Positions 13,140-15,375 of a DNA stretch of 64,000 nucleotides are shown piece after piece. The position numbers were made by a program, and so were the translations under genes. This DNA comes from Fodinibius sediminis (GTDB taxonomy: Bacteria; Bacteroidota; Rhodothermia; Balneolales; Balneolaceae): contig NZ_FXTH01000002.1 in NCBI RefSeq assembly GCF_900182555.1, positions 1 through 64,000 of the forward strand, in the 5' to 3' direction. The stretch's first letter is position 1, and each line of letters starts with the position of its first letter. The notes under the pieces are model-generated. The model made no database searches. It saw only the letters and a program-made list of their open reading frames with translations, and was not told the DNA's origin.

Positions 13140-14156
13140 TTAGTAATTGGTGTATTCGGTGGAGGATACTTCGAAAAAGTTGATCAGCTTCTTGACGTCT
13201 TCTTTCTGCAGAAACCGCAGCGGATTTTCATTAATATGGAATTCCTGCTGAAAACCCAGTTCCTGCAACCTTCGGTCGGTGATGTACTTCAGGTAGCGCT
13301 CCAGCTCGCCGTATGAAATGCCGAGGATCGTACGGTTTCCGAATTTATGCTTTACATATTCGATTTCGAGGGACGTACCTTCCAGAATGACATCCCGGAT
13401 GTCCTGCACGTACTGCTGATCCTCTACAATCTCCGGGTTCTCATCCAGCATGATGAGGATCGCTTCAATGCCGTTCTGCAGGTGCAGCGATTCATCAATC
13501 AGTACCAGCTCTACACCAGAAACCACGTTCTTCATCTTGGCCATATCCTTGAGGGCAAAAAAGTGCGCAAAGGAGGAGTAGAAAAAAATACCCTCCAGGA
13601 TAATATTGTTAAGCAGGATAGCCCGCAGGATCTGCTTCTGTCCCTCGAGCGTATTGGGATCAATCTGCCCGTAGCTAATCTTATCGATTTCATCCACGAT
13701 GAGCGACTGTTTCTTCCGCAGGATGGGATCGTCAAAGGCTACGTCGTACATCTTCTCACGGTCCATGCCGAACGATTGCAGTACAATCTCGAAGAAATCG
13801 CTGTGGATATTCTCCATAAACAGCTGCGTGCTGAAACTCATCTTGGCATGGGGATCGGTAAGCAACGGAAAAAAGGAATTAACCAGTACATTCTGCACCA
13901 GCAACTCCGATGAGCAAAAGTAGCCGACGGCAGTATCAAAGAGATCTTTTTCATCCGCCGATAGCGTGTGATAGTCTAATGCATCCTGTTGAATATTCAG
14001 CTCTTCCGGGAACCAGACAGCTTTTTTCTGCTTTTCATACAGCTCCTTAAAAATCGGATATGAGGGGTCTTCACTGAGTTTAATATTATCACGTACGGAA
14101 GTACGTCCAATGAGTTTGTTGTTCATAAATAAATAAGGTTTGTCGGGACGTATCAT
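13140..14156 (-). CDS. nrdB: Ribonucleotide reductase beta subunit, class Ic-like (no radical tyrosine)
   Basis: 338 residues. The diiron-carboxylate ligands are recognisable: Glu84 (CSSELLVQN), Glu115 and His118 (MENIHSDFF), Glu188 (NNIILEGIFFY), and Glu222 and His225 (LIDESLH). The residue four after His118, which is the radical tyrosine in class Ia, is Phe122, and the first ligand is Glu rather than Asp. Chlamydial class Ic NrdB has both of these changes and uses a Mn/Fe cofactor. The start ATG 14156 has GAGG upstream on the minus strand; Met11 (14126) is an alternative without one. The start codon sits in the loop of a 7-bp hairpin. Confidence 0.93.
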   Translation of the reverse strand: MIRPDKPYLFMNNKLIGRTSVRDNIKLSEDPSYPIFKELYEKQKKAVWFPEELNIQQDALDYHTLSADEKDLFDTAVGYFCSSELLVQNVLVNSFFPLLTDPHAKMSFSTQLFMENIHSDFFEIVLQSFGMDREKMYDVAFDDPILRKKQSLIVDEIDKISYGQIDPNTLEGQKQILRAILLNNIILEGIFFYSSFAHFFALKDMAKMKNVVSGVELVLIDESLHLQNGIEAILIMLDENPEIVEDQQYVQDIRDVILEGTSLEIEYVKHKFGNRTILGISYGELERYLKYITDRRLQELGFQQEFHINENPLRFLQKEDVKKLINFFEVSSTEYTNY

Positions 14157-14165
14157 GGTACGTCC
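14146..14165 (-). promoter_or_regulatory. Hairpin enclosing the nrdB start codon
   Basis: ggacgta (14146-14152) and tacgtcc (14159-14165) form a perfect 7-bp inverted repeat with a 6-base loop. The loop contains the nrdB ATG (14154-14156), and the stem takes in part of the purine-rich ribosome-binding region. It may limit translation initiation. Confidence 0.5.
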
Positions 14166-14218
14166 TCACATATTAAAATTTTATCCTTTTTCCGGATCAG
14201 GCGGGCCGCTTACATTAT

Positions 14219-14506
14219 ATTATCCAGGATGGCAGGGGCCCTTCCCAACCGCGCTTCTTGACGTCGGCAGTTACGAAAATTCCTGGGGGAAAATCGTTTC
14301 GAGCCACTGGTCGCAGCGCGAACCGTCGGTTACGGCGTCGGCCCAATACCAGCTTCTTTCTATTTGGTCCTGTTTAGGATGTTCAGGGCTTCCCGGGGTG
14401 CCATCAACTGTGATTTATCGATCCCGCCTTTCCAGTAGGATTCGACAATTTTTTTAAGGTCTCTTTTAATACCTATCCGCGGATATCCAAGGTTGTGAGT
14501 AAACAT
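14219..14506 (-). pseudogene. metE: Relic of metE, cobalamin-independent methionine synthase
   Basis: From ATG 14506 the minus strand reads as the MetE N-terminus: [19 protein letters not shown], then [14 protein letters not shown], 48 codons to a TAG at 14360-14362. The same frame continues with KEAGIGPTP, again MetE-like, before a second stop. Near 14219-14277 a second scrap reads VTADVKKRGWE and, after a frameshift, LPSLDNIM-like sequence, matching the MetE C-terminal NPDCGxKxRGW region. Intact MetE has about 760 residues, so almost the whole gene is deleted. The relic lies directly between a cobalamin riboswitch and nrdB. The N-terminal match is strong, the C-terminal one moderate. Confidence 0.85.
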
Positions 14507-14613
14507 AAATATGTCGGTTGTTTTAGCTATAATTATTCGAGGAGGGAATACTAAAACATTGAAGAAGGCAGGAATAGAGATGCTTATCTAATTAATAAAA
14601 GAATACAACCTGT

Positions 14614-14670
14614 CTGCCTTTCAACAACGCCTTAACTCCCGAAGGCCTCGTTTACTCGACTTAAAGGCAG
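14614..14670 (-). promoter_or_regulatory. Possible expression platform of the cobalamin riboswitch
   Basis: The 3' strand of riboswitch helix P1 (complement of 14663-14670) can instead pair perfectly over 8 bp with a downstream segment (complement of 14614-14621). A second hairpin (aacgaggcctt region with aaggcgtt) lies between. Mutually exclusive pairings of this sort are typical of riboswitch switching, but the exact mechanism is not resolved. Confidence 0.45.
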
Positions 14671-14858
14671 GTCTCCTGGCTAACCGACAGACTCTTTTGA
14701 CCTTCCCGCCTCGTTTGGGGCTGAGACAGTGGTTATTCAAAAGATACATCGGCTTACAGTTGCGGGAACAGCTCCGGATTTTCCTCCCAATCGTTCGGGA
14801 GAATCACCGGATTCCCTTTTCACCCCGACCGTATCGGGGCACCTTTAAATCTTACTTC
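14658..14858 (-). ncRNA. Cobalamin (B12) riboswitch
   Basis: On the minus strand the conserved blocks of the AdoCbl riboswitch occur in order: GGTGCCCC (14836-14843), GGGAATCCGGTG (14805-14816), AGCTGTTCCCGCAACTGTAAG (split over 14753-14773) and the 3' B12 box GCCAGGAGACCTGCC (14666-14680). Flanking tttaaa/ttaaa segments close helix P1. The class represses downstream genes when cobalamin is plentiful. Immediately downstream is the metE relic, the classical target, and then nrdB-nrdA, which may have inherited the control. Confidence 0.95.
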
Positions 14859-15375
14859 CAAGTAAATAGCTCAGCAGCTCATTGTCAATCAATACTTTTC
14901 CACATTTCCGGCAAGTTGTCAACATTTCAGGGATGCCTTCCTCATAGCGTGCCCCTCAACGCCGGTCTTGGGCCGGGAGCCATGCATTTATCACAACAAT
15001 CTATTTTAAGTTCTGAAGAAAGCAGAGCAGCATGCAGGAGACGCTGAATTAGATAAAAGGGACAAAGAACAAACGCTCGGATGAGCATAAGACAATCAGA
15101 TAGCTGACATCAGAGGTATTATGTTAGCGTTTTAAGGATTCAACGGATGAATCTACTACTATCACCTGCATCTATAGGATCATAATGTGATAATGATAAG
15201 CGCCAAGGGTGTACCATGGAAACAAAGCACATGGTCTCCCGCATTACAGTCCCGGAACCGATCACCGGGAAACGACTGTTGAATGGCATACATAAAATAC
15301 GTATGGTAAGGCATGTAATCATATTTATTCTCAAAAGATCCTTATCCATCAATTTTAACATTCATTCACCTCATT
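14859..15375. other. Intergenic region between riboswitch and DUF1080 gene
   Basis: 517 bases holding the divergent promoters of the riboswitch transcript (minus) and the DUF1080 gene (plus). Two small palindromes are visible: accatg/catggt at 15213-15235, and a two-part stem, acagtc plus cccgg, at 15246-15278. No convincing ORF or tRNA was seen. Confidence 0.5.

Follow-up and report, generated by a model that had tools for sequence, protein, structure and literature searches.

The stretch of DNA analyzed here, a 64,000-nucleotide piece of the Fodinibius sediminis genome (the window; its genome is referred to as G000), carries on its minus strand a cobalamin riboswitch, the scraps of a metE gene, and the class I ribonucleotide reductase genes nrdB and nrdA (Table 1). 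The riboswitch was the sole Rfam match in the window at the gathering threshold. It matched the RF00174 covariance model over its full length (model positions 1-189 of 189) and scored 123.4 bits (E 1.6e-30), where the gathering score is 31.5. These results bear out the first-pass annotation where it claimed a complete B12 riboswitch on the nrdB strand with metE scraps between switch and nrdB; the range that it gave, 14219-14858, takes in the switch along with the 5' scrap and some of the 3' scrap.

Table 1. Features of the riboswitch-nrdBA locus (positions in the window)
Feature	Position	Strand	Remarks
Cobalamin riboswitch aptamer (RF00174)	14649-14861	minus	full-length model match
L13 hairpin, stem GCCUU/AAGGC, loop CGGGAGUU	14629-14646	minus	helix 1
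Sequester hairpin GUUUUAG..CUAAAAC	14520-14557	minus	helix 3; 5' arm alternatively pairs with L13 strand
metE relic, 5' part	14346-14506	minus	ATG 14506; 48 open codons 14506-14363; TAG 14362-14360
metE relic, 3' scrap (...KKRGWEGPLPS..)	about 14178-14261	minus	DNA match to metE 3' ends
nrdB, class I ribonucleotide reductase small subunit, 328 aa, class Ic-like	13140-14126	minus	ATG 14126
nrdA, class I ribonucleotide reductase large subunit, 803 aa	10642-13053	minus	TIGR02506 above cut-off

The metE gene of the window is broken: a stop follows codon 48, the bulk of the gene is gone, and what G000 retains of it here comes to about 160 nt from the 5' end and about 80 nt from the 3' end. The leader and the 5' scrap were 87% identical in DNA, over 442 bases, to the intact operon of F. 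salsisoli (G007). The 3' scrap was 72% identical to the 3' end of G007 metE and lies within a 185-base match to the relative G005 (84% DNA identity), and the approximately 85 bases between the two scraps found no match in three pairwise DNA comparisons. Over its 48 codons the 5' relic differs from G007 by 9 synonymous and 14 non-synonymous codon changes, and the same codons of the intact metE genes of G007 and G005 differ by 9 and 8, respectively; the changes in the relic appear to fit drift, 48 codons being too short for a test. At the nrdB end, an in-frame ATG at 14156 would lengthen NrdB by 10 aa. It is overlapped by a palindrome just upstream of nrdB, GGACGTA-N6-TACGTCC (14146-14165), which occurred in 0 of 100 shuffles. 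A similar palindrome was seen between metE and nrdB in G005 (L047 5129-5148), and one with a shorter loop in the nrdJ locus L100.

The reductase had been labelled class Ia, and this label did not hold. When NrdB was aligned to 1syy and 4d8f, it showed Phe at the radical-tyrosine site and Glu as the first metal ligand, a combination which, like these two structures, we take to mark class Ic. The Phe was present in 19 of 19 NrdB sequences, i.e., those of 17 cassettes together with L176 and L177. Judged from its sequence, NrdB is class Ic-like and not class Ia. The Chlamydia class Ic NrdB (PDB 1syy, 4d8f) shares both residues with the cassette protein and is only moderately similar to it (phmmer 125.8 and 125.5 bits). 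The best NCBIfam match of the window NrdB lies under its cut-off (205.8 versus 237 bits).

The relatives compared included F. salsisoli, F. roseus (G011), Aliifodinibius salipaludis (G002) and F. halophilus (G003). A search of 58 genomes, G000 counted, turned up the nrdB of this family in 12, and RF00174 stood upstream of it in every one of them. An intact metE lies between switch and nrdB in G002, G003, G005, G006, G007 and G029, that is, in five relatives from the genus and in G029, which is the arrangement that the first-pass annotation had proposed to look for. A metE relic takes its place in F. roseus and G000, and nrdB follows the switch without metE in G001, G010, G028, G030 and other outgroups. 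In all, metE was present in 8 of the 58 genomes (intact between switch and nrdB in six, a relic in F. roseus and G000), and a second intact copy was found only in G000. The nrdA gene lay downstream of nrdB in the longer stretches read. Neither metE nor nrdB was found in G004, G008 and G009.

A named search returned 12 NrdB loci, 10 of them of this family (83-97% identity) and all 10 with RF00174 upstream; the other two NrdB proteins were remote (25-27% identity) and stand outside the riboswitch count. In a sample of the phylum, the nrdB family occurred in 13 of 395 genomes, and the three loci that were new also had RF00174 upstream, two of them with leaders identical to L079 and L080. With all sources pooled and duplicates counted once (two identical-leader loci and five repeat contigs), the switch precedes nrdB in 18 of 18 distinct genomes, two of which, Sunxiuqinia and Mariniphaga, are Bacteroidota outside the Balneolaceae. 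Among the genomes found, the order riboswitch-metE-nrdBA is confined to Fodinibius and one other genus (G029), and every outgroup genome with this nrdB has the riboswitch directly on nrdB with metE absent between them. In Sunxiuqinia and Mariniphaga, frames resembling nrdD and nrdG were seen by eye after riboswitch-nrdBA on the same strand (L083 6157-13070 and L084 6170-12531), so that one B12 switch may span class I and class III reductases there. A Balneolaceae MAG has, immediately behind nrdBA, a second RF00174 and a gene resembling a TonB receptor (L080 10034-10255).

The history of metE in the cassette was read from a combined NrdB+NrdA tree, whose root was set on the Bacteroidota and in which NrdA is partial in 4 of 17 rows (G005, G006, G029 and G030). 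The Fodinibius cassettes, with or without metE, formed one clade with G029 (98/97), outside of which stood G030, a group of G028, Gracilimonas and a MAG, and the two Bacteroidota. Within the clade, G000 paired with G007, G011 with G005 and G010 with G003 (100/99 each), and G001 with G002 (97/96); in each sister pair, one member has metE intact and the other has lost it. Forcing G000 and G011 together was rejected (p 3e-53), as was forcing together G001 and G010 (p 3e-57). By parsimony, the cassette tree requires a minimum of five changes, which reads as one gain of metE and at least four losses in which the switch and nrdBA would have been kept. Since parsimony thus places one insertion behind the switch of nrdBA, followed by four losses, metE looks like a guest in the operon and not the original owner of the switch. 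MetE proteins are 72-89% identical inside the group, and the nearest MetE outside it shares about 60% identity with G007 MetE.

The losses differ in form. Two of them leave relics (the window and F. roseus), and two put the nrdB start at the former metE start (G001 and G010). In F. roseus, an internal deletion of about 1.5 kb shifted the metE frame, and the sequence on either side of it is about 90% identical to G005. The leaders of G001 and G010 match that of the respective sister until a few bases before the metE ATG, where nrdB begins instead; the distance from aptamer to nrdB ATG is 135 nt in G001 and 138 nt in G010, and that from aptamer to metE is 138 nt in G002 and G003. A tree of NrdJ and MetH instead joined G000 and G011 as sisters (96/98). 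A single metE loss shared by these two was considered and rejected by the cassette tree, by the leader tree (p 3e-44) and by the shapes of the deletions. Because the cassette and NrdJ+MetH trees differ on G000 and G011 and genomic neighbors differ within the genus, the data suggest that the cassette moved between Fodinibius species.

In 10 leaders, the region behind the aptamer is conserved: first comes the L13 hairpin (loop CGGGAG), next a long hairpin, and last GUUUUAGC...GCUAAAAC, a hairpin that stops 8 to 13 nt ahead of the start codon across leaders (13 nt in the window). A kissing loop between L5 and L13 is a feature of cobalamin riboswitches, and by eye CCCG in L5 and the complementary CGGG in L13, as sequence complementarity only, were present in 17 of 17 leaders. 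In the window aptamer, an 8-base complement to L13 also occurs outside the L5 loop; at that length it is absent from the other 16 leaders. We folded the platform without the aptamer and imitated L5 binding by constraint. When folding was free, the L13 strand took the 5' arm of the sequester hairpin in 9 of 11 leaders, the hairpin being already closed in G005 and G006; when L13 was held unpaired, the sequester hairpin formed in 11 of 11. In 10 sequences, 100% of the cells of helix 1 were paired, and helix 3 had 96% of its cells paired, mostly invariant and without covariation. Both folds pair far better than versions shifted by 1-3 columns. Covariation was not above that of shuffles, in which the score of the B12-bound fold was reached by 58 of 500 and that of the B12-free fold by 99 of 500; the fold therefore rests on conservation, position and energy. 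In the outgroup G030, where nrdB stands directly behind the switch, a hairpin of different sequence occupies the same place. Intrinsic termination was considered and rejected: in the leaders read, the hairpins lack a U-run behind them, and a scan of the minus strand from switch to nrdB showed no terminator-like site.

Altogether, the features of the leader suggest a translational switch with two states. In the steps that folding and conservation suggest, the L13 strand would pair in the absence of B12 with the 5' arm of the sequester hairpin and leave the first start codon open. With B12 bound, the L5 loop would hold L13, the GUUUUAG/CUAAAAC hairpin would form upstream of the start, and translation of the first gene would be blocked; later genes would respond only via polarity or mRNA decay. 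In G001 and G010, where nrdB is the first gene, direct B12 control of nrdB would be expected.

Where the switch came from bears on a central claim of the first-pass annotation, that nrdBA gained B12 control through the collapse of metE. If the switch had been metE's own, the collapse of that gene would have placed nrdBA under B12 control, and the metE relic between switch and nrdB is what one would then see. Moreover, RF00174 was found at 9 of 20 metE loci examined in the phylum (a SAM riboswitch at 2), and forcing the Fodinibius and G029 leaders together with eight of these nine metE leaders, the partly masked L156 being omitted, was not rejected at 5% (p 0.07). However, the intact riboswitch-metE-nrdB order in six relatives means that nrdBA was behind the switch before any collapse, and each outgroup nrdB of the family that was found has its own riboswitch without metE. 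In the best aptamer tree, the Fodinibius and G029 leaders group with Balneolaceae nrdB leaders (98/92), apart from the eight phylum metE leaders (100/99); the G030 leader joins the Balneolaceae nrdB leaders at 93/22 in this tree, which contains long branches. The leaders of Sunxiuqinia and Mariniphaga are placed with other B12 riboswitches, apart from Balneolaceae nrdB leaders, and a single clade uniting the 20 cassette leaders was not rejected (p 0.13). From the outgroups and the best aptamer tree we infer that in Balneolaceae nrdBA had the switch before metE did. With the riboswitch ahead of nrdB in every genome pooled above, metE or not, inheritance of the switch from metE was set aside as the leading reading, and we consider it improbable; given the p value of 0.07, arrival of riboswitch and metE as a unit is possible. 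A related question is whether the metE-less cassettes of G001 and G010 are recombinants with a metE-less leader or retain the ancestral form. The leader tree alone does not reject G001 and G010 as one clade (p 0.23), does not contain the pairing of G010 with G003, and gives G010 a long branch, but the NrdBA tree rejects that clade and both leaders match those of metE-bearing sisters almost up to the metE start, which makes either origin unlikely.

For the window itself, two readings were weighed against that of a loosened switch. The riboswitch may be fully functional on nrdBA through polarity (Rho) or mRNA stability, turning nrdBA off with B12. We regard this as a serious possibility, if somewhat short of an even chance: the aptamer, L13 and the sequester hairpin are intact, and the aptamer scores 123.4 bits in the window against 123.7 in its sister G007, where metE is intact, but the relic frame stops after 48 codons, 233 nt ahead of nrdB would go untranslated in either state, and the minus strand holds no terminator-like site between switch and nrdB. 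Alternatively, the switch may be vestigial, with nrdBA driven by a promoter of its own inside the metE remains, which we regard as a real possibility, though less likely than not. The aptamer ends 522 nt from the nrdB start, with the relic in between, and one sigma-70-like match lies on the nrdB strand at 14248-14219; against this, a single match in the scanned region falls short of the 2.0 that chance alone would give, and the aptamer score is without decay. As a candidate in its own right, this nrdB-proximal promoter, a single weak match under chance expectation, was rejected. Because the first start codon behind the window switch is that of the 48-codon metE relic and a stretch of 233 nt ahead of nrdB would go without translation whether or not B12 is bound, we consider B12 control of nrdBA in this genome to be probably weakened or indirect.

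Taken as a whole, the likely explanation is an older riboswitch-nrdBA unit into which metE was inserted and from which it was lost at least four times, with a translational switch and with weakened control in the window. The operon would be a set of backup enzymes that need no B12, led by a B12 riboswitch. According to parsimony, the common ancestor of the Fodinibius and G029 cassettes would have taken up metE behind the switch and ahead of nrdB, after which one switch would have governed the B12-free replacements for both MetH and NrdJ. The comparison shows that metE was then lost repeatedly while the switch and nrdBA were retained, and that the window is one of two relic stages, in a genome where MetE is still encoded by a second copy of the gene that has no switch. 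More tentatively, the series may be one of re-docking, in which the first gene dies, control of the second gene loosens (the window and F. roseus) and deletions restore it (G001 and G010), so that selection for B12-controlled nrdBA, and not for metE, would preserve the switch.

The remainder of the window genome fits a class II reductase elsewhere, as had been predicted from the locus: a genome search located nrdJ on contig C2, about 0.3 Mb from the cassette, metH on C20, and an intact metE on C18. MetH, the 1204-aa B12-dependent reductase and the intact 779-aa MetE each scored above the NCBIfam cut-off. The C18 metE (G000:C18:46517-48853; L039) has no riboswitch. Its product groups with G007 MetE (85/90), yet the two are 78% identical and the NrdA proteins of both species are 95% identical; the C18 gene may be the cassette copy simply moved. 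The gene ahead of it is weakly ComA-like (97 versus 280 bits, under the cut-off). Two further RF00174 copies exist in the genome, one ahead of a btuF/C/D-like importer and one ahead of a TonB receptor (gene names read by eye), and all three copies are on C2.

Among the 58 genomes, nrdJ was present in 56 and metH in 55. CbiC, of corrin synthesis, was found in 0 of 58 genomes, with control rings positive in 7 of 14, and the group therefore very probably scavenges B12. If so, nrdBA and metE would serve as insurance against B12 shortage. Counted from 72 of 87 riboswitch rows, 34 of the 56 genomes with nrdJ have this gene downstream of RF00174 on the same strand, at a distance of no more than 10 kb. 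The nrdJ locus of G000 is at C2:313882-321125 (L040), and a TonB receptor stands between RF00174 and nrdJ in the four loci of the genus that were read (L040 and L050-L052).

Streptomyces has a class II reductase beside its class Ia enzyme. A B12 riboswitch reportedly governs the class Ia nrdABS genes of this genus, at the level of transcription to judge by the title of the 2006 report by Borovok and co-workers. As in Streptomyces, the switch described here stands ahead of a B12-independent class I reductase; here, in contrast, nrdBA is class Ic-like, metE came to stand behind the switch and ahead of nrdB in this clade, and the platform appears to act on translation. That B12-elements repress B12-independent isozymes is an established proposal for NrdDG and, before that, for methionine synthase (PMC545781). 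The logic there is the same as here, a B12-free isozyme being repressed with B12 where a B12-dependent isozyme exists. The case described there is NrdDG, whereas in the present system a single switch leads a gene row of metE and class I nrdBA, from which metE was serially lost. In Chlorobium, separate cobalamin riboswitches on metE and on nrdD are described as mainly translational (PMC8620254); both kinds of B12-free isozyme are thus under cobalamin riboswitches in one genome, as here, but with separate switches there and one shared switch here. The riboswitch-metE units of other Bacteroidota (L153, L155-L157, L160-L162, L168 and L170) share the RF00174 aptamer ahead of metE and differ in their L13 and platform sequences, with MetE proteins 58-60% identical to that of G007; by eye, no nrd gene was recognised among the few frames downstream of them. 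For algae, long-lasting repression has been described as a way in which metE comes to be lost (PMC8123684).

Searches of the open-licence papers in PMC brought up none on Fodinibius ribonucleotide reductase or on Balneolaceae riboswitches. New, to the extent of these searches, are a single switch over metE together with nrdBA, the late entry of metE that parsimony suggests, and its four independent losses from behind a switch that persisted. The cassettes offer a natural series of a riboswitch keeping, gaining and losing its targets, with intact, relic and clean-deletion stages in close species, several of them named strains. This makes testable for which target, metE or nrdBA, selection keeps the switch, as well as whether a translational switch is able to control the second gene of an operon. 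For Fodinibius and its relatives, the picture is one of probable B12 scavengers that would insure against shortage with a switch-led, class Ic-like reductase.
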